A DNA stretch of 64,000 nucleotides from Oscillospiraceae bacterium (lineage in GTDB: Bacteria; Bacillota; Clostridia; Oscillospirales; CAG-272). Location: the NCBI GenBank assembly GCA_015065385.1, contig SVQK01000056.1, forward strand, positions 1 to 64,000, read 5' to 3'. Below the pieces are notes generated by a model, which was given only the letters and a program-made list of their open reading frames with translations, searched no databases and was not told the origin of the DNA. Positions 52,923 through 62,837 of this stretch are shown piece by piece; position 1 is the stretch's first letter; every line of letters begins with the position of its first letter. Position numbers and translations under genes: made by a program.

Positions 52923-53951
52923 TCAGATCTGATCCGCGATCGCGTAGATCAGCTTTTCCGAATCCGCCCAGCCGAGGCAGGGGTCGGTGATGGATTTTCC
53001 GTATATCCCCTCGCCGATCTTCTGGGAGCCTTCCTCGATATAGCTCTCGATCATGAGGCCCTTGACCAGCTTCCGGATGTCTTCGGAATGGCGGCGGGCG
53101 TGGAGCACCTCGCTTGCGATGCGGGGCTGCTCGCGGAACTGCTTGCCGGAGTTGGCGTGGTTGGTGTCCACGAGGACCGCGGGATTTGCGAGGCCGGATT
53201 CGGCGTACCGTTCCGCAAGGAAGATCAGGTCTTCGTAGTGATAATTCGGCAGGCTCTGCCCGTGCTTGTTCACATAGCCGCGGAGGATGGCGTGCGCCAG
53301 CGGATTCCCCGCGCTCTCCACCTCCCATCCGCGGTAGATGAACGCGTGCGGATGCTGAGCCGCGGTGATGGAGTTCATCATGACCGAGATGTCGCCGCCC
53401 GTCGGGTTCTTCATCCCGACCGGAATGTCCAGCCCGCTCGCCGTCAGACGGTGCTGCTGGTTTTCCACGCTCCGCGCGCCGACGGCGGTGTAGGCGAGAA
53501 GATCCGAGAGATACCGGTAGTTCTCCGGATAGAGCATCTCGTCCGCCGTGGACAGTCCCGTCTCCTCGAGCACCCGGATGTGGACCTCCCGGATGGCGAT
53601 GATGCCTTTCAGAAGGTCGCTCTCCGCTGTGGGATCGGGCTGATGGAGCATGCCCTTGTAGCCGTCGCCGATGGTCCGGGGCTTGTTGGTGTAGACGCGC
53701 GGGATCAGGATCAGCTTGTCCGCCACCTTCTCCTGAACCGCCGCGAGCCGTGTGACGTAATCCAGCACGGGTTCCTCGGAGTCCGCGGAGCAGGGGCCGA
53801 TCACGAGGATGAACTTGTCGCTCTTCCCCTCAAAGACCTGACGGATGGCGACGTCGCGGGCGGTTTTCTTCTGTTCGTTGGCGAGGGAGAGCGGATAGAG
53901 CTCCTTGATTTCCATCGGGATCGGGAGCTTGCGCTTGAAATTCATGTTCAT
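52923..53951 (-). CDS. aroF: 3-deoxy-7-phosphoheptulonate synthase (DAHP synthase, type I)
   Basis: 342 aa; FILVIGPCSADSEEPVLDYVTRLA, IPRVYTNKPRTIGDGYKGMLHQPD, GARSVENQQHR, KNPTGGDISVMMNSITAAQHPHAF. Confidence 0.92.
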   Translation of the reverse strand: MNMNFKRKLPIPMEIKELYPLSLANEQKKTARDVAIRQVFEGKSDKFILVIGPCSADSEEPVLDYVTRLAAVQEKVADKLILIPRVYTNKPRTIGDGYKGMLHQPDPTAESDLLKGIIAIREVHIRVLEETGLSTADEMLYPENYRYLSDLLAYTAVGARSVENQQHRLTASGLDIPVGMKNPTGGDISVMMNSITAAQHPHAFIYRGWEVESAGNPLAHAILRGYVNKHGQSLPNYHYEDLIFLAERYAESGLANPAVLVDTNHANSGKQFREQPRIASEVLHARRHSEDIRKLVKGLMIESYIEEGSQKIGEGIYGKSITDPCLGWADSEKLIYAIADQI

Positions 53952-53963
53952 CTCTGTAACCTC

Positions 53964-54836
53964 TCAGTTTTCTTTCGGTTTCGGTTTGTCGAACAGTGCG
54001 CGTCTCGCCGTGGAGATGCGCATCATCTCTTTCATCTTGTCCACGTTCTCGTCCGCCAGATAGGTGCGCATCCGGTGCAGCTCCCCGGTGAAGGCGTCGA
54101 TCTGCGCCACGAGCTTTTTCTTGTTCAGGAGGAAGAGCTCCGACCACATGTCCTCGTTGATCCGGGCGATCCGGGTGAGATCCCGGAAGGAGTCGCCCGT
54201 GTAGTCCACCAGATGCGGTTCCGTGTTGGAGGTCATGAGGGCGACGGCGATGCAGTGGGTGAGCTGGGAAAGAAACGCGATCATGTCGTCGTGCTTGTCC
54301 GGCGTGAGCTCGCTGATCCGCGCGAATCCGAGGACCTCTCCCAGCTCCCGGCAGAGCGCGACAGCCTCCGGTGTGTTCTTCTCCGTGGGGATCACGATGT
54401 AGTTCGCCCCTTTGAAAAGCTCAGCGGTGCTGTTCTCCACGCCGTAGACCTCCCGGCCCGCCATGGGATGCGCCGCGATGAACTCCACGCCCTCGGGCAG
54501 CATCGCCTGAATGTCGTAGACCACCGCGCACTTGACGCCCGTGACGTCGGTGACGACCGTGCCCGGGCGAAGGAGCGAACCGTGCTCCGCGATCCATTCC
54601 CGGAAGACGTGGGGATACAGGGCAAAAATCACAAGGTCGGAGTCGGCGATGAGCGCGGGATCGACCTCTGTCGTGCCGAAGGAGACGATCCCCTCCCGCA
54701 GAGCGTAGTCCACGGAGGCCGGATCGATCTCGACGCAGCGGACGTCATAGCCCTTTCCCGTCAGGACCCGGGCATAGCTCCCGCCCAGGAGTCCCAGACC
54801 CACGATCAGGATTTTTCTCTCATTCAGTGATTTCAT
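53964..54836 (-). CDS. tyrA: prephenate dehydrogenase
   Basis: 290 aa; ILIVGLGLLGGSYARVLTGKGYDV, TDVTGVKCAVV, FIAAHPMAGREVYGVENS. Confidence 0.88.
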   Translation of the reverse strand: MKSLNERKILIVGLGLLGGSYARVLTGKGYDVRCVEIDPASVDYALREGIVSFGTTEVDPALIADSDLVIFALYPHVFREWIAEHGSLLRPGTVVTDVTGVKCAVVYDIQAMLPEGVEFIAAHPMAGREVYGVENSTAELFKGANYIVIPTEKNTPEAVALCRELGEVLGFARISELTPDKHDDMIAFLSQLTHCIAVALMTSNTEPHLVDYTGDSFRDLTRIARINEDMWSELFLLNKKKLVAQIDAFTGELHRMRTYLADENVDKMKEMMRISTARRALFDKPKPKEN

Positions 54837-56032
54837 TGGAGTTCCACCTCGATTCCGAGCGAACGAATCGCTTCAAAGTAGTCGGGCCAGCTTTTCCGGA
54901 CGGCCTCCGCTCGCGTCAGCTCCCCGCCGGTCAGAGAGAGCAGAACGGACAGAGCCATGGCGACGCGGTGATCGTTGTGCGAGTCCACCGGAGTCGTCGG
55001 CGCATGAGGCTGGGCAGGGCAGACGACGATTCTGTCCTCCCCGACGTCGCAGCGGATCCCGCATTTGGCAAGCTCTTCGGCCATCGCCGCGCCCCGGTCG
55101 CTCTCCTTCATCCGGAGCCGCGCGGTTCCGGTGAGGGTCACGCCGTGAAGAATACCGCCGAGAACCATGAGGATGGGGGAGAGATCCGGAATGTCCTCCA
55201 CCGCGATCGTCGGCGCGCCGTCCGCCAGCTTCGGATAGAGTTGCCGGTAGATCCGGTCCCCCTGTCCGCTTTCCGGATCGAGCCCCGTGACAAGGACCGA
55301 TCCCCCCGTGAGATTGAAGGCGTCCGGGAACGCCGCGTTGGACCAGTCGCCCTCCACAGTGACGTTCTGCGCCGATAAAGCCTGATTTCCCGGGATCGTC
55401 CAGCGCAGGGAGCCGGATTCCTCGATTTCAGCCCCGGCTTTTCTGAGCACGTCGAGCGTGAGGCGCAGATAGGGCAGGCTGACGGCGGGGGGAATCAGCT
55501 CGAGCGTCGATTCCCCGGGCAGACAGGGCAGGGCGAAGAGCAGTCCCGTCAGAAACTGGCTCGATACGTCCCCGCGCACCCGGAACAGTCCCGGCCCGAG
55601 CGGCCCCTTCACATGGATCCCGTCCTCACCGCGCCGGAAGGTCAGCCCCCGCTCCCGGCAGAGATCCTCGTACACGCCGAGGGGACGGGAGAGGAGCCGT
55701 TCGCTGCCCGTGAACACGGATTCCGAGTCCCGCAGAAGGGCCAGCGGAAGGAAGAACCGCAGCGTGCTCCCGCTCTCCCGGCAGGGGAAGAGAGAGGAGG
55801 GGGAATGCGCTCCGGGGGTGATTCTTGCCGTTCCGTTCTCAATCTCGATTGCCGCTCCGAGAGCTCTGGCGCAGTCCACGGTGGCGAGCACGTCTTCGCT
55901 GAGCATCAATCCGGCGATCGTCGAGGGCTCCCGGGCAAGGCAGGCCGCGATGAGCTCCCGGTGGGCGAGGGTTTTCGAGGGCGGCGCCGCGATCGATCCG
56001 GACGCGCGGGAGGGGGAGAAGACGGCCTTCAT
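54833..56032 (-). CDS. aroA: 3-phosphoshikimate 1-carboxyvinyltransferase (EPSP synthase)
   Basis: 399 aa; SRASGSIAAPPSKTLAHRELIAACLA, ESGSTLRFFLPLAL, VDSHNDHRVAMALSVL. Confidence 0.9.
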   Translation of the reverse strand: MKAVFSPSRASGSIAAPPSKTLAHRELIAACLAREPSTIAGLMLSEDVLATVDCARALGAAIEIENGTARITPGAHSPSSLFPCRESGSTLRFFLPLALLRDSESVFTGSERLLSRPLGVYEDLCRERGLTFRRGEDGIHVKGPLGPGLFRVRGDVSSQFLTGLLFALPCLPGESTLELIPPAVSLPYLRLTLDVLRKAGAEIEESGSLRWTIPGNQALSAQNVTVEGDWSNAAFPDAFNLTGGSVLVTGLDPESGQGDRIYRQLYPKLADGAPTIAVEDIPDLSPILMVLGGILHGVTLTGTARLRMKESDRGAAMAEELAKCGIRCDVGEDRIVVCPAQPHAPTTPVDSHNDHRVAMALSVLLSLTGGELTRAEAVRKSWPDYFEAIRSLGIEVELQ

Positions 56033-56472
56033 CTCCGCACCTCCCCGAAGTTTTCACGCAGATAATCCATCGCCTCGAGATAGCCTTCGAATCCGTGTCC
56101 CGCGATGGTGAGGACCGCCGCCTGACGGATGTAGCTGACCTGCCGGAAATCCTCCCGCTTCGATACGTCGGAGATGTGAACCTCCACAGTAGGAATGCCA
56201 ACCCCCTTGACCGCGTCGAGCAGGGCGACGGAGGTGTGCGTGTAAGCCGCCGGATTGATCACCAGCCCGTCGTACCGGCCGTACATCCACTGAATGGCGG
56301 TCACGAGATCCCCCTCGTAATTGGATTGGGCGACGGCGGCAAATACGCCCGTTTCTCTGGCATGCCGGTGGATCAGGTTCACTAAATCCCGGTAGGTGCG
56401 GCGTCCGTAGACGTTGGGCTCCCGGATCCCCAGCAGATTGAGGTTCGGGCCGTTCAGAACAAGAAGTTTCAT
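56029..56472 (-). CDS. aroQ: type II 3-dehydroquinate dehydratase
   Basis: MKLLVLNGPNLNLLGIREPNVYG, QSNYEGDLVTAIQ, INPAAYTHTSVALLDA; start refined. Confidence 0.92.
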   Translation of the reverse strand: MKLLVLNGPNLNLLGIREPNVYGRRTYRDLVNLIHRHARETGVFAAVAQSNYEGDLVTAIQWMYGRYDGLVINPAAYTHTSVALLDAVKGVGIPTVEVHISDVSKREDFRQVSYIRQAAVLTIAGHGFEGYLEAMDYLRENFGEVRR

Positions 56473-56491
56473 CATGCGGAAGAATCTCCCT

Positions 56492-57583
56492 TCAGGCAAG
56501 ACAGTCGGTTCCGAAGCGCGCCGTCATGAGATCGGCCAGCACAAAGGCGCAGAGGCTGTCCACAACGATCCGCGCCCGGTGGATGATCGCGGGATCGTGG
56601 CGTCCGCGGACCTCGGTCACGGCGTTTTCTCCGGTGAGGAAGTTGACGGTGTCCTGCTCGATCCGGATGGACGGGGTGGGCTTCACGGCCGTCCGCATGA
56701 GGATCGGCATTCCGTTCGAGATTCCGCCGTTGATCCCGCCGCTGTGATTGGTGACCGTATAAAACCCTCCGTCCGGGGATACGCGGATGGGATCGTTAGC
56801 CGCGCTGCCCGTCATGTCCGCGAATCCGAATCCGGCGCCGAACTCCACGCCTTTCACGGCGGGAACGGAGAAAACCGCGTGCGCCAGCCGGCTTTCGACG
56901 GAATCGAAGAACGGCTCTCCCAGACCCGCGGGCAACCCTGCGACGGCGGTTTCCAGAATGCCGCCCACGCTGTCCCCAGCCCCCGCCTCTTCCTCGATCC
57001 GACGGGTCATCGCCTCCGCCGCTTCGTCCTCGAGAACGGGGAAGAACTTCGCGGACAGGGCCTCGATGTCCCCGGTCAGGTTCGATTCGTCAAAATTCCG
57101 GTCTCTCAGCTCCCCGATCCGCAGAATGTGGGTGCCGATGCCGATCCCTTTTTTCCGCAGCGCATCCCTCAGCGGCGCGCAGACCGCAACGACCGCCGCC
57201 GTCAGCCTGCCCGAGAAGTGGCCGCCTCCCCGGTAATCCTCGAATCCGTGGTACTTGATGAAAGCCGTGAGATCCGCGTGGGAGGGACGGGCGACGCCGT
57301 AGGAGTAATCCCCGCTTCTTGTGTCGGCATTCGGAATGAGGATCGTCAGGGGCGTTCCGGTGGTCTTTCCGTTGAATACGCCGCTCACGATCTCGAACTC
57401 GTCCGCCTCGGACCGCGCGGTGGAAATCGCTCCCCTCGGACGGCGGAGATCCAGCGCGGCGCGGATGGAACGCCCGTCCACCTCCATGCCGGGAGCCAGC
57501 CCGTCCAGCGTCGCGCCGATCATCTTGCCGTGGCTCTCGCCGAACAGGGTCAGAATCAGGCTGTCGCCGAAGCTGTTTTTCAT
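56492..57583 (-). CDS. aroC: chorismate synthase
   Basis: 363 aa; LTLFGESHGKMIGATLDGLAPGM, HADLTAFIKYHGFEDYRGGGHFSGRLTA, GGINGGISNGMPI, GRHDPAI. Confidence 0.93.
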   Translation of the reverse strand: MKNSFGDSLILTLFGESHGKMIGATLDGLAPGMEVDGRSIRAALDLRRPRGAISTARSEADEFEIVSGVFNGKTTGTPLTILIPNADTRSGDYSYGVARPSHADLTAFIKYHGFEDYRGGGHFSGRLTAAVVAVCAPLRDALRKKGIGIGTHILRIGELRDRNFDESNLTGDIEALSAKFFPVLEDEAAEAMTRRIEEEAGAGDSVGGILETAVAGLPAGLGEPFFDSVESRLAHAVFSVPAVKGVEFGAGFGFADMTGSAANDPIRVSPDGGFYTVTNHSGGINGGISNGMPILMRTAVKPTPSIRIEQDTVNFLTGENAVTEVRGRHDPAIIHRARIVVDSLCAFVLADLMTARFGTDCLA

Positions 57584-58605
57584 GTTCTTTCACCTCCGAA
57601 TACGGACGCGTACCGTTCTGCCAGCTCGTCGGGCGTCATGCGGACCACCCGGCAGGAACCCGGCTCCTCCACCGTGACCGCGTCGATCCCGCCCCCCGCG
57701 CTCTTCTTGTCGTGGAGCATGGCCTCCCGGACGGCGGAGACGGGAAGGGAAACCGAGACGGGCAGATTCAGCTTTTCGAGAACCGGGACGAGCCGTTCCC
57801 TCACCGCGGGGGCGCACATCGGCAGCATCCCGAGGGCGACGCATTCCCCGTGATAGAGCTCCGGGGCCGCCGCGCTCTCGATGGCATGTCCGACGGTGTG
57901 GCCGAAATTCAGGATCTTCCGCAGTCCCGCCTCCCGCTCGTCCGCCTCCACCACGGCCTTCTTGATCCGGAGCGAGCGGACAATGATCTCGCCGAGCGCG
58001 GATTTGTCCGCGGGATCCTCCTCCTCGAAGAGACGGAACAGCTCCGCGTCCGAGGTCAGCGACATTTTCAAAGCCTCCGCCATGCCGTTCGAGAGGTGGC
58101 GCGGGGAGAGGGTTCCGAGGGTGTCCGGATCGATCAGAACGCCCTTCGGCTGCCAGAAGGAACCGACGACGTTCTTGACGCCGTGAAAATCCACCGCGGT
58201 CTTGCCCCCGATGGAGGAATCCACCTGTGAGAGCAGGGTGGTCGGGATGTTGTAGAAGTCGATCCCGCGCATGTAGAGGGACGCGGCGAATCCGACCAGA
58301 TCCCCGACGACGCCCCCGCCCACCGCGACGGCGCAGTCATGCCGGTCGAATCCGTTTTCAAGCATCGCCGAGAGCAGGATTTCGAGAGTCTGCATGGATT
58401 TGGACGCCTCGCCCTCCGGGATCGTGAGGATCACGGGATGCTTCACATTCCGCGCAACGGTTTTGACATATTCCCCGGGCACGCCGGAATCGGTCACCAG
58501 CAGCGCCCGCCGGTCCAGACGGAAGAGCTCGCCCGCCCGGGACAGCGCGCCGGATTCCACGATGATCCCGTAGCTTCTCTCGCCGAGATTCATGGTCAGC
58601 GTCAT
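57580..58605 (-). CDS. aroB: 3-dehydroquinate synthase
   Basis: 341 aa; DCAVAVGGGVVGDLVGFAASLYMRGIDFYNIPTTLLSQVDSSIGGKTAVDFHGVKNVVGSFWQPKGVLID. Confidence 0.93.
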   Translation of the reverse strand: MTLTMNLGERSYGIIVESGALSRAGELFRLDRRALLVTDSGVPGEYVKTVARNVKHPVILTIPEGEASKSMQTLEILLSAMLENGFDRHDCAVAVGGGVVGDLVGFAASLYMRGIDFYNIPTTLLSQVDSSIGGKTAVDFHGVKNVVGSFWQPKGVLIDPDTLGTLSPRHLSNGMAEALKMSLTSDAELFRLFEEEDPADKSALGEIIVRSLRIKKAVVEADEREAGLRKILNFGHTVGHAIESAAAPELYHGECVALGMLPMCAPAVRERLVPVLEKLNLPVSVSLPVSAVREAMLHDKKSAGGGIDAVTVEEPGSCRVVRMTPDELAERYASVFGGERT

Positions 58606-58606
58606 C

Positions 58607-59695
58607 TCATTTTCCTCCCGTCCGGTATGAGCCCAGTACTTTCAGTTTGTCGCAGACCGCGGAGAGCTCTTCGAGCATGGAGCGCCCGTTGTCCGAGCGG
58701 ATATTGCCCTCGCCCTCCACGGTGAAGTAGTAGTTCCAGAGGAGCGTTTTGAGCGGCCGGGAATGGAGGCTGCGCATATTGTAGCCGTGCCGCCCGATGA
58801 TATTCACCGCCTCGGCGAGCGACCCCGCCTGATTCTTGACCGAGAAGACGAGGAAAAAGCTGTCGTCCTCCCGGCCCGGCGCGTCGTTTTCCGTGCGGGA
58901 GAGGACCGCGAACCGGGTGGTGTTCTGCCCGCTCTCGTTGATCTTGCGGGCCAGCACCTCGAGACCGTAAAGCCGGGCCGCTTCCTCCGTTCCGATCGCG
59001 GCGAGGGAGGCGTCCCCCAGTTCCGCGACGAATTTGGCCGCCTGCGCGGTATTGCCGTATTCCCGGGTCTCGAATCCGTGCTCCCGGATGAAGGGGGCGC
59101 ACTGGCTCAGAGCCTGCAGATGGCTGATCACGGTGCGGATCCCGCCGAGCTTTGTCCCCGGGAGGACCAGAAGATTCTGGGTCACGGCGAGCTCGAGGAT
59201 CCGGTTGACGTAAAGCGGCCCGGAGAAGAGCAGGTCGTACACCGCGCTGACCTCGCCCGCGAAGCTGTTCTCCATCGGGAGCACCGCCAGATCGCAATCC
59301 CCGCTTTCCGCCGCTCCGTATGCGGCAGCGAAGTCGGGGCAGGGGACCGGGATCCCGTCCGGGAAGAGTTTTTTCACGGCTTCTTCCGCAAAGGCTCCGG
59401 GAACGCCCGCGTACGCGATCCTCATTCCCGAAATCAGCCGGGTCTGATACGCGCGGGAGGTCGCCATCATGTCTTTCAGAAAGCGGACGTAGTAGTCCCG
59501 GAGAACCGGATCCCCGATCCTTCCGCTGCCCGCCCGGATCACGGCCTCTTCCCGTTCCGGATCGAGAACCGGAAGACCGCGCTCCTTCTTGTAGGCCGCC
59601 ACCTGTTCCGCCGCTCTCATCCGCTCCTCGAACAGGACGGCCATTTTCGCGTCGGTTTCGGATATGATCTGCCTTGCCTTTTCCAGCTCGTTCAT
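58607..59695 (-). CDS. pheA: bifunctional chorismate mutase/prephenate dehydratase
   Basis: MNELEKARQIISETDAKMAVLFEERM (CM), MRIAYAGVPGAFAEEAVKKLFPD and LAVLPMENSFAGEVSAVYDLL (PDT), ACT-like C-terminus; start refined from 59914. Confidence 0.9.
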   Translation of the reverse strand: MNELEKARQIISETDAKMAVLFEERMRAAEQVAAYKKERGLPVLDPEREEAVIRAGSGRIGDPVLRDYYVRFLKDMMATSRAYQTRLISGMRIAYAGVPGAFAEEAVKKLFPDGIPVPCPDFAAAYGAAESGDCDLAVLPMENSFAGEVSAVYDLLFSGPLYVNRILELAVTQNLLVLPGTKLGGIRTVISHLQALSQCAPFIREHGFETREYGNTAQAAKFVAELGDASLAAIGTEEAARLYGLEVLARKINESGQNTTRFAVLSRTENDAPGREDDSFFLVFSVKNQAGSLAEAVNIIGRHGYNMRSLHSRPLKTLLWNYYFTVEGEGNIRSDNGRSMLEELSAVCDKLKVLGSYRTGGK

Positions 59696-59803
59696 GGGGA
59701 AAACCCTCCTGATCAACAGAAAAACACAGAAAACGGGATGCTGCCGTCTTCTGCGTTCTCTCGTAAAACGAACCGGACCGCGCCGGAACGCTTCGGATAT
59801 GAC

Positions 59804-59835
59804 AAAACCGCAGAAGACCTTCCGGCATTCTGCGG
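59804..59835 (-). terminator. attenuator terminator upstream of pheA
   Basis: Minus strand CCGCAGAATGCCGGAAGGTCTTCTGCGGTTTT. Confidence 0.8.
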
Positions 59836-59852
59836 CGCGTGAAAATCGACGT

Positions 59853-59936
59853 TCACTGTGCGGACCCAGACTGCCGGGAGCAGAGAGCGTAATAATAATA
59901 AAATCGCACAGCAAAGCAATCGATGCGGTTTTTCAT
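59853..59936 (-). CDS. pheL: aromatic amino-acid attenuator leader peptide (27 aa)
   Basis: MKNRIDCFAVRFYYYYALCSRQSGSAQ*; AAGGAG RBS; run F-Y-Y-Y-Y; followed 17 nt later by the terminator hairpin. Confidence 0.85.
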   Translation of the reverse strand: MKNRIDCFAVRFYYYYALCSRQSGSAQ

Positions 59937-60097
59937 CCTGCGCTCCTTCTCCGGGTTCAGATCCGGCTTTTGATGTGAATGATTATACCACGGAATGTAT
60001 GTTTTGTCAAGGATGATTGCGCGATGGAATCGAAATCGGCCATTTGTACGGAACCGTCCCCGTCTCCGCGCGCGGGTTCGGGTGATTTGACCGGAAA

Positions 60098-60763
60098 TCA
60101 GTCCTTGTTCCCGCGGAGTCCCTCGGACACTTTTTCCCGTCCCAGCAGCAAAAGCCGGGCAAAGAGCAGGTTCGCCGCCAGTATGACGAGGACGGTGATG
60201 TACCACCGCCCGCCGATGTTGAAGCCGTAGAAATCCGGCCATCCGCCCCGGTCCGCGCCGACGAAGATCACCATCCGGACGTAGACCGCTCCGTAGACCA
60301 GCGTCCCGGCGATCCCCGCAAAGGGGTTCTTCCTCGGGTAATCCGCCCCCGGCTCGAAGAACAGGAAGGAAACGATCGCCAGAACCGGGACGATCAGATG
60401 AAACCAGAAATTCGCGCCCGTGAGCACGGCGGCGTACCCGAAGAGCGGGCCGAGGAAGCAGAACACCGTCATCATCGTCAGCGTCAGAGCGGAGACGGAC
60501 ATGTAGCGGAGCAGGGACAGGACTTTCGGCACGCGGTCTCCCCCTCCGGCAAGCGTCCGGACCGCGCAGACCGCCATGGGGACGGCGGCGAGAGCGGCGA
60601 GGACGTTCGACAGGGTGGTGTAGTAGCGGAAGACCTTATACCTCGGCACAAAATCCGGTCGGTCCGGGATAAAGACAAGGGCGAAGATACAGACCGCCAC
60701 GATGACGAAAATCAGAAGATTCGAGACAAGGGAAAGGGCGGAGCGCAGGCGTTCGTTTTTCAT
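60098..60763 (-). CDS. multipass membrane protein, unknown function
   Basis: 222 aa; MKNERLRSALSLVSNLLIFVIVAVCIFALVF... several TM segments; start refined from 60850. Confidence 0.75.
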   Translation of the reverse strand: MKNERLRSALSLVSNLLIFVIVAVCIFALVFIPDRPDFVPRYKVFRYYTTLSNVLAALAAVPMAVCAVRTLAGGGDRVPKVLSLLRYMSVSALTLTMMTVFCFLGPLFGYAAVLTGANFWFHLIVPVLAIVSFLFFEPGADYPRKNPFAGIAGTLVYGAVYVRMVIFVGADRGGWPDFYGFNIGGRWYITVLVILAANLLFARLLLLGREKVSEGLRGNKD

Positions 60764-60782
60764 GGAGTCCCCTCCGAATCGG

Positions 60783-61589
60783 TCACTTGGCGTAGAGAGA
60801 TCCGACGATCCGGTTGAACAGCGAGGCGGGCAAAATCCGCGCGAGCGCACAGACGGCCTTGTAGGAGAACCCGATCGTGGACACCGGGGGAACCGACTTT
60901 CTCAGCGCCTGAGCCGCGATGTACACCCCGGCCTTGGCGGGATCCATGCCGTTCTGCTCGTCTCGCTCCATTTTCGATACGCTCCGGGAGATCCGGCCCC
61001 CGTATTCGTCGTCGCCGAGCGCGGATTTTTCCCTCGCCGCCGTGAATCCGGTCCGGATATCCCCGGGCTGAACGGCCGTGACGCGGATCCCGTACGGGCG
61101 CACCTCGTTGGCGAGCGCGGCGGAAAACGCGTTCAGCGCGGCCTTGGCAGAGGAATAGAACGCCTGAAACGGGATGGAGACGGGCGCGGCGACGGAGGAA
61201 ATATTGACGATCATGCCGTCTCCCTGCTTCCTCATGTGCGGCAGAACGGCCTTCGTCACGCTGACGGCTCCGAAGAAGTTCACGTCGAACTGCTTCTTCG
61301 CGTCGGAGAGATTCGTGAACTCGATCGCCCCGGAGATGCCGAATCCGGCGCAGTTCACAAGGATATCGATCCGTCCGGCGTCCGCGAGCAGGGAAGAGAC
61401 GGCCTCGTTTACGGCAGCCTCGTCCGTGACGTCCGCCGTCAGGGAGACGATCCCCGGGACGGAGGCGGGGCGGCGGCTGAGCGTGTACACCCGGCATCCG
61501 CGGTCCCGCAGGGCTTTCGCAGTCTCAAGCCCGATCCCGGAGGTCCCGCCAGTGACAAGGGCAGTACGTCCGGCTCCCTTATTCTTCAT
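60783..61589 (-). CDS. short-chain dehydrogenase/reductase (candidate 3-ketosphinganine-type reductase by context)
   Basis: 268 aa; TALVTGGTSGIGLETAKALRDRG, NCAGFGISG, YSSAKAALNAFS; overlaps the upstream PLP enzyme gene by 11 nt. Confidence 0.85.
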   Translation of the reverse strand: MKNKGAGRTALVTGGTSGIGLETAKALRDRGCRVYTLSRRPASVPGIVSLTADVTDEAAVNEAVSSLLADAGRIDILVNCAGFGISGAIEFTNLSDAKKQFDVNFFGAVSVTKAVLPHMRKQGDGMIVNISSVAAPVSIPFQAFYSSAKAALNAFSAALANEVRPYGIRVTAVQPGDIRTGFTAAREKSALGDDEYGGRISRSVSKMERDEQNGMDPAKAGVYIAAQALRKSVPPVSTIGFSYKAVCALARILPASLFNRIVGSLYAK

Positions 61590-62757
61590 GGGGAATGATG
61601 GAGGCGATGATGTCGTCCGCCTCTTCCACCAGCGCTTCGGTCAGGGTCGCCATGCAGGAGGTCCTCAGCAGGCATTCGTGCTCCGCGCAGGCCGGGGTGA
61701 TGACCGGGTTGACATAGACGCCGGCGTCGTACAGCTCGCGGGCTTTGCGGAGGGTGTTTTCCTCTTCGTAGGTGTAGATCGGAACCACGGGGGTTTCGGA
61801 TTCGATGATGCGGATATGGCGGTCGCGCAGGCACTTGCGGTGATACGCGCTGATATCGCGGAGCCTGTCCACGCGCTCGGGGTGCTTCTCGAGATAGCGG
61901 AGCGCGGCCAGAGCCACGGCACAGGAGGAAGGCGTGATGGACGCGGAGAAGATGAACGGACGGGACACATGGCGCACATATTCCACGACCTCGCGGGACG
62001 CGGCCATGTATCCGCCGAGGGAGGCGAGGGACTTGGAGAAGGTGCCCATGTAAATGTCCACCTGATCCTCGAGCCCGAAGTGGGACGCGGAGCCGCGCCC
62101 GCCCTTTCCGATGACGCCGAGCGCGTGAGCGTCGTCCACCATGACCTTCGCGCCGTACTTCTTCGCCAGAGCGCAGATTTCCGGGAGCTTGGCGATGTCG
62201 CCGCCCATGGAGAAAATGCCGTCCGTGACGATGAGGCAGCCGAAGGTGTCCGGAACCTTCTGCAGCTGGGCCTCGAGGTCCTCCATGTCGGCGTGCCGGT
62301 ACATCATCAGCCGTCCGAAGGAGAGGCGGCAGCCGTCATAGATGGACGCGTGGTTTTCGCGGTCGCAGATCACGGCGTCGTGACGGCCCACCACCGCGGA
62401 AATGATGCCGAGATTCGACTGGAATCCGGTGGAGAAGGTGGTGACGGCCTCCTTGCCGAGGAACCGCGCCAGCTCCTCCTCAAGCTCGATGTGCATGCGG
62501 AGCGTGCCGTTGAGGAAGCGGGAACCGGAGCAGCCCGTGCCGTACTGTTCGAGGGCGCGGATCCCGGCTTCGATCACCTCGGGCTCGGTGGTGAGCCCCA
62601 GATAGTTGTTGGAGCCGAGCATGATGCGCCGCTTGCCCTCCATGACCACCTCGCAGTCCTGACGGGTTTCCAGCGCGTGGAAATAGGGATAAATACCGGC
62701 GTCCTTCGCGTCGTCCACGCGGGAACGCTGCCTGCACTTGTCAAAAAGATCAACCAT
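61579..62757 (-). CDS. alpha-oxoamine synthase, serine palmitoyltransferase-like
   Basis: MLGSNNYLGLTTEPEVIEAGIRALEQYGTGCSGSRFLNGTLRMHIELE, VDDAHALGVIGKGGRG, MGTFSKSLASLGGYMA (SPT-type PLP-lysine motif); start refined from 62826. Confidence 0.85.
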   Translation of the reverse strand: MVDLFDKCRQRSRVDDAKDAGIYPYFHALETRQDCEVVMEGKRRIMLGSNNYLGLTTEPEVIEAGIRALEQYGTGCSGSRFLNGTLRMHIELEEELARFLGKEAVTTFSTGFQSNLGIISAVVGRHDAVICDRENHASIYDGCRLSFGRLMMYRHADMEDLEAQLQKVPDTFGCLIVTDGIFSMGGDIAKLPEICALAKKYGAKVMVDDAHALGVIGKGGRGSASHFGLEDQVDIYMGTFSKSLASLGGYMAASREVVEYVRHVSRPFIFSASITPSSCAVALAALRYLEKHPERVDRLRDISAYHRKCLRDRHIRIIESETPVVPIYTYEEENTLRKARELYDAGVYVNPVITPACAEHECLLRTSCMATLTEALVEEADDIIASIIPHEE

Positions 62758-62808
62758 GACGGATTTGCCTCCGGGAAGTTCAAAACTCCGAACTATATTT
62801 TTTGAGTT

Positions 62809-62837
62809 ATTATACGCCCTGAACATGGATTTGTCAA
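62809..62837 (-). promoter_or_regulatory. perfect-consensus sigma70/A promoter for the SPT-like/SDR pair
   Basis: Minus strand TTGACA-17 nt-TATAAT. Confidence 0.85.

Follow-up and report, generated by a model that had tools for sequence, protein, structure and literature searches.

A candidate his-like six-segment attenuator preceding a phenylalanine/tyrosine/shikimate operon in an uncultured Clostridia genome

The locus lies on the minus strand of the 64,000-nucleotide stretch of contig SVQK01000056.1 that was analysed as a whole (the window) and comprises a promoter, a short leader reading frame, two successive U-tracted hairpins and a seven-gene operon. Leader reading frame, codon run, five alternative helices, promoter and operon are supported by the sequence and its conservation, and their coordinates are collected in Table 1. 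The original prediction had placed the leader, its Shine-Dalgarno sequence, the hairpin at 59835-59804 and the antiterminator arms correctly, and the gene order pheA-aroB-aroC-aroQ-aroA-tyrA-aroF was confirmed using NCBIfam profiles. The matches of PheA to NF008866 and NF007910 were below the curated cut-offs, with a full-length architecture. Promoters closely resembling the box at 60010-59982 were found in the relatives L002, L003, L004 and L006-L008, none being evident in L005. Directly 5' of the -35 box, an inverted repeat (e.g. CCGAT...ATCGG), which may either terminate transcription of the preceding gene or act as an operator, is conserved in L006-L008 and L132, and a similar CCGATTT is located near the -35 box in L001-L003.

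Table 1. Features of the leader locus and operon, numbered as positions of the window
Feature	Position	Strand	Basis or remark
Sigma-70 promoter TTGACA-17-TATAAT, extended -10 (TG)	59982..60010	-	12/12 consensus match
Shine-Dalgarno AAGGAG of leader peptide	59943..59948	-	sequence
Leader peptide MKNRIDCFAVRFYYYYALCSRQSGSAQ, 27 codons, with Phe-Tyr-Tyr-Tyr-Tyr	59853..59936	-	ORF and conserved F/Y-run leaders in relatives
Segment A, CTGTGCG	59905..59911	-	pairs with B
Regulatory codons TTT TAT TAT TAT TAC (Phe Tyr4)	59889..59903	-	Phe 59903-59901, Tyr 59900-59889
Segment B 5' part, CCGGCAGTCTG, antiterminator arm	59867..59877	-	pairs with C
Segment B 3' part, CGCACAG	59856..59862	-	closes pause hairpin A:B
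Segment C, CCGCAGAATGCCGG, hairpin 1 5' arm	59822..59835	-	pairs with B or D
Segment D, GGTCTTCTGCGG, and U-tract TTTT of hairpin 1	59804..59819	-	pairs with C or E
Segment E, CGCAGAAGACGG	59744..59755	-	pairs with D (10 bp) or F (12 bp)
Segment F, CCGTTTTCTGTG, and U-tract TTTTT	59720..59736	-	terminator hairpin E:F
pheA, chorismate mutase/prephenate dehydratase, first structural gene	58607..59695	-	NF008866, NF007910
aroB, aroC, aroQ, aroA, tyrA, aroF, remainder of operon	52923..58605	-	NCBIfam profiles

The 27-codon Phe-Tyr4 leader with its ribosome-binding site is present as described previously, extending from an ATG at 59936-59934 to a TGA at 59855-59853. Its Phe/Tyr codons are enclosed by a 7-bp pause-type hairpin (A:B, CTGTGCG/CGCACAG) with a 3' arm at the end of the reading frame, and the antiterminator arm (59877-59867) is positioned approximately 12 nt past the last Tyr codon and approximately 12 nt short of the stop. 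The reported complementarity of this arm (CCGGCAGTCTG) to CAGAATGCCGG at 59832-59822, with one mismatch, was reproduced. The terminator that had been assigned at 59804 exists as hairpin 1 (CCGCAGAA...TTCTGCGG-TTTT, 59835-59804; -17.4 kcal/mol), but the last and best U-tracted hairpin is hairpin 2 (E:F, 59755-59720; -16.4 kcal/mol), located between hairpin 1 and pheA. Taken from its predicted start, the leader RNA folded better than shuffled sequences (z = -2.93), and the segment 59710-59880 did so more strongly than the whole leader RNA (z = -3.95).

Orthologues of pheA were drawn from the genus, the family and the order, and leaders with an F/Y run were identified in 37 of 113 upstream regions, compared with a mean of 2.2 and a maximum of 5 in dinucleotide shuffles and with 3 on the reverse strand; the other 76 regions displayed no such leader directly before pheA. 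In the window and its seven closest relatives (L002-L008, PheA 66-82% identical to that of the window), the leader peptide and both hairpins were present in 8/8 and indels within the leader reading frame were multiples of 3 nt only. The comparison with relatives proposed in the original prediction was thus borne out, as the F/Y run was found in all eight leaders and the alternative helices were retained. Farther F/Y-run leaders include MFKQYAYFYYFMSAMDRCIVPGLAK and MRNNFKCYYYFYFTEAMDCCVVRNLAA, as well as MFFESCYFYFYFTRRCPYSF from another family of the order, and the order pheA-aroB-aroC is retained in many relatives. The leader is genuine and well beyond chance expectation: that a chance reading frame stands ahead of a constitutive double terminator, short reading frames being common, is scarcely credible against 37 leaders with 2.2 expected and a codon run kept from genus to genus and even in a second family of the order. 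The leader, predicted to be translated, carries a run of codons for end products of the operon, a feature by which attenuators are recognised. When a covariance model was built on the eight leaders, the genome of the window yielded a single copy and 30 of 397 genomes in the family yielded matches, the weakest of them perhaps by chance; matches in other genera were weak (E 1e-4 to 1e-2). A contig search for relatives yielded six, of which two appear to be identical to the L002/L003 contigs.

Aromatic genes of low-GC Gram-positives are often controlled by T-boxes, of which the same genome displays 11 matches, and a T-box, a riboswitch or a protein-bound leader could on these grounds be proposed instead of ribosome-mediated control. 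However, an Rfam scan of the whole window matched tRNA as the sole family, a permissive scan of the leader with E up to 5 returned no match, T-box (RF00230) included, and nothing was found in a scan of the leaders of 20 relatives, whilst the conserved feature is an F/Y codon run within a reading frame; control of this kind is very improbable. The present short leader genes escape Rfam. Behind some of the T-boxes in the same genome (loci L037 and L041-L044), the genes resemble, by eye, valS, serS, thrS, a trpB-like gene and a transporter gene, and T-box and leader-peptide control apparently coexist in this genome, split by pathway.

The six segments A-F form a chain of five helices (A:B, B:C, C:D, D:E and E:F) in which neighbours are mutually exclusive. 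Given the six segments and the complementarity of D to E, the chain resolves into either A:B, C:D and E:F (stop) or B:C and D:E (go). In an alignment of eight species, 95.8% of cells were paired in the off-state helices and 94.9% in the on-state helices, compared with 35-55% and 33-49%, respectively, when the arms were slid. For the individual helices, the values were 94.6% for A:B (with both-side changes at two pairs), 89.5% for B:C and 100% for D:E versus 92.7% for E:F. As the arms hardly vary, there is little base-pair covariation within the genus. The B segment of L005 was misplaced by MAFFT, and B:C of this species was therefore judged by duplex energy and not by alignment columns. Among ten representatives, native D:E duplexes were stronger than between-species swaps (mean -19.4 versus -16.4 kcal/mol, p = 0.0005), as were native B:C duplexes (p = 0.014). 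As in known attenuators, antiterminator and terminator pairings are predicted to exclude one another, and the antiterminator arm lies shortly downstream of the regulatory codons.

Since C and E are similar, as are D and F, some cross-pairing would arise automatically if the two hairpins were independent tandem terminators with arms alike through duplication, the D:E complementarity being incidental. Such an arrangement predicts C:F and D:E duplexes of similar strength; however, D:E was the stronger in 13 of 13 species (means of -18.8 and -12.6 kcal/mol for D:E and C:F, respectively), which indicates that it is not a mere by-product of two similar hairpins, and D:E is both better kept than E:F and stronger in native than in swapped pairs (p 0.0005, as above). 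The contrast does not hold in genus g45 (L135-L137, L141-L143), in most species of which C:F equals or exceeds D:E, with D:E weak in three of six, and this genus was not counted in its support. On balance, incidental complementarity is unlikely, and a relay through D:E is preferred. In g45 the same chain heads an aminotransferase-like gene followed by pheA. In this genus C can pair strongly with either D or F, and the stop state there may differ.

A second U-tracted hairpin precedes pheA in all eight orthologues, none of which is accordingly of the single-terminator (four-segment) form, and the extra hairpin C:D was also identified in the further two-hairpin leaders L046, L048, L049, L052, L054 and L055. 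The U-tract of hairpin 2 was found in 14 of the 14 two-hairpin leaders examined. That of hairpin 1 is present in L001-L004, L007, L046, L048 and L049, interrupted in L006 and L008, poor in L054/L055 and genus g45, and without a usable form in L005 and L052. Where it is absent (L005, L052) or poor (L054, g45), hairpin 2 must terminate; it is probably the terminator that matters, and hairpin 1 would be a relay everywhere and perhaps an extra terminator in some species. A circuit of the four-segment trp/phe type, in which hairpin 1 (59835-59804) is the sole regulated terminator and hairpin 2 is irrelevant, would draw on the stability of hairpin 1 (-17.4 kcal/mol) with its UUUU and on the single terminator found behind a similar leader in relatives outside the two-hairpin group. 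Hairpin 2, however, matches hairpin 1 in stability, surpasses it in its U-tract and is retained in 8/8 orthologues; hairpin 1 of L005 and L052 has no U-tract, and if D did not pair with E, hairpin 2 would halt transcription in every condition. The four-segment circuit is for these reasons improbable. Of the trp/phe-style attenuation originally proposed, the ribosome-mediated Phe/Tyr leader was upheld, with codon run, arms and operon context kept, and the four-segment circuit was replaced by one of six segments. Hairpin 2 would have blocked the operon even in starvation under the earlier scheme, and the D:E relay explains why it need not.

The locus is, in our judgement, very likely a ribosome-mediated, his-like six-segment attenuator of the seven-gene Phe/Tyr/shikimate operon, as far as can be read from sequence and comparison. 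We infer stalling of the ribosome, a defined order of folding and limitation of Tyr/Phe as the signal. If charged Tyr-tRNA (and Phe-tRNA) runs low, a ribosome would stall on FYYYY and cover A, so that B would pair with C and leave D free; D would then pair with E once E is transcribed, F would be left without a partner, no terminator would form and the polymerase would read through into pheA. With ample Tyr and Phe, the ribosome would reach the stop codon and cover B, C:D would form, E would pair with F and the polymerase would halt at E:F, or earlier, at C:D, in leaders whose hairpin 1 has its own U-tract. In the case of no translation, A:B, C:D and E:F would all form and transcription would halt too. 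Pairing of D with E is thereby predicted to disable the terminator once B:C has formed, as is characteristic of his-type attenuators, more weakly so in genus g45.

Folding of the leader in both states, the check suggested with the original prediction, agreed with this scheme when carried out in stages. With a ribosome footprint on the Tyr codons, B:C formed first and D:E next in 13/13 species, and placing the ribosome at the stop codon gave C:D in 13/13, followed in the full transcript by E:F in most species, not clearly so in L006 and L048. Fully relaxed folding, in contrast, often preferred C:D and E:F, even with A covered, and for the complete RNA it favoured the terminators in most species; the go state would therefore have to be kinetic. 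Such a preference of relaxed folds for terminators is usual among attenuators. In L002, L004, L007, L008, L046, L048, L049 and L052, E:F largely displaced D:E in the full transcript despite a locked B:C.

The attenuators of E. coli pheA and trp are four-segment systems with one antiterminator and one terminator. Aromatic codons in the leader, a pause hairpin, an antiterminator, a terminator and the pheA pathway are shared with them, whereas the Clostridia leader couples two hairpins via D:E. In the his attenuator of Salmonella, the E:F terminator forms with plentiful His-tRNA, and B:C and D:E form when the ribosome slows (PMC4046918); for E. coli his, AB, CD and EF are likewise opposed to BC and DE (PMC10989985), and the extra hairpin was proposed in a modelling study to lower basal read-through (PMC1183508). 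The Clostridia leader resembles the his attenuators of Salmonella enterica and E. coli in its run of end-product codons in a short leader reading frame, its six segments, its off (A:B, C:D, E:F) and on (B:C, D:E) states and the additional hairpin that separates the pause hairpin from the terminator. It differs in that the codons are Phe/Tyr and not His, that the hosts are uncultured Clostridia and not enterobacteria, and that C:D has its own U-tract in several species and may terminate too. Sequence similarity to the enterobacterial his leader was not detected and common descent with it received no support, no Rfam family being matched at E up to 5, and the likeness is one of architecture. The chained double hairpin was considered as a new design and dropped, as the his attenuator has the same layout (PMC4046918, PMC10989985, PMC1183508). 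Here the six-segment his layout would serve a different amino acid, in bacteria of a different phylum.

Among Firmicutes, leader-peptide attenuators have been predicted or demonstrated in bacilli for hisZ/hisS* (hisS paralogues) (PMC2965389) and in Staphylococcus aureus for the branched-chain ilv-leu operon (PMC5794164), and one for Clostridium difficile hisZ is cited in a passage of PMC4833913, as is a discussion of RNA helix chains in attenuators (Lopatovskaya et al., 2010). These his and ilv-leu leaders share with the present one ribosome-mediated attenuation in a T-box-dominated phylum and differ in their amino acids and genes. The pheA motif is an RNA element named for pheA in Actinobacteria (PMC2864571), a different phylum; the Clostridia leader and 20 relatives match no Rfam family. 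The open literature searched yielded no account of Clostridia with a Phe/Tyr leader ahead of pheA/aro genes; such leaders may be mentioned in comparative surveys available by subscription. Classical ribosome-mediated attenuation of aromatic synthesis would be added by the present leaders to a large group of uncultured Clostridia. This group is usually regarded as T-box territory.

On the PheA tree, the two-hairpin form requires three changes, a number as low being obtained in 0/500 shuffles, and occurs solely within a single supported group (98/96), which encompasses genera g1, g12, g45, g52 and g91. Single-terminator leaders (e.g. L015, L017 and L018) occur both inside and outside this group. 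Because a single family includes both forms, it is possible to trace how the extra hairpin was gained or lost and, with this, the proposal on basal read-through (PMC1183508). A more tentative reading, to which we give somewhat less than an even chance, is that C:D acts as both relay and terminator in a double lock, one stalled ribosome opening two terminators, and that this arose in the Clostridia clade from the single-terminator Phe/Tyr attenuators of related genera, independently of the enterobacterial his leader. L015, L016 and L011 are single-terminator leaders of the same genus as the two-hairpin leaders L001-L008, and their PheA is approximately 53-55% identical to that of the window; horizontal exchange of the operon is possible.

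Elsewhere in the window, a putative operon at 60098-62837 on the minus strand is located behind another 12/12 promoter (62837-62809). It encodes a serine palmitoyltransferase-like protein (NF047600, 521 bits, below the cut-off of 640), a 3-ketodihydrosphingosine-reductase-like SDR (NF049977, 228 bits, below the cut-off of 400) and a Pr6Pr-type membrane protein, and sphingolipid synthesis in this Clostridia genome is possible.
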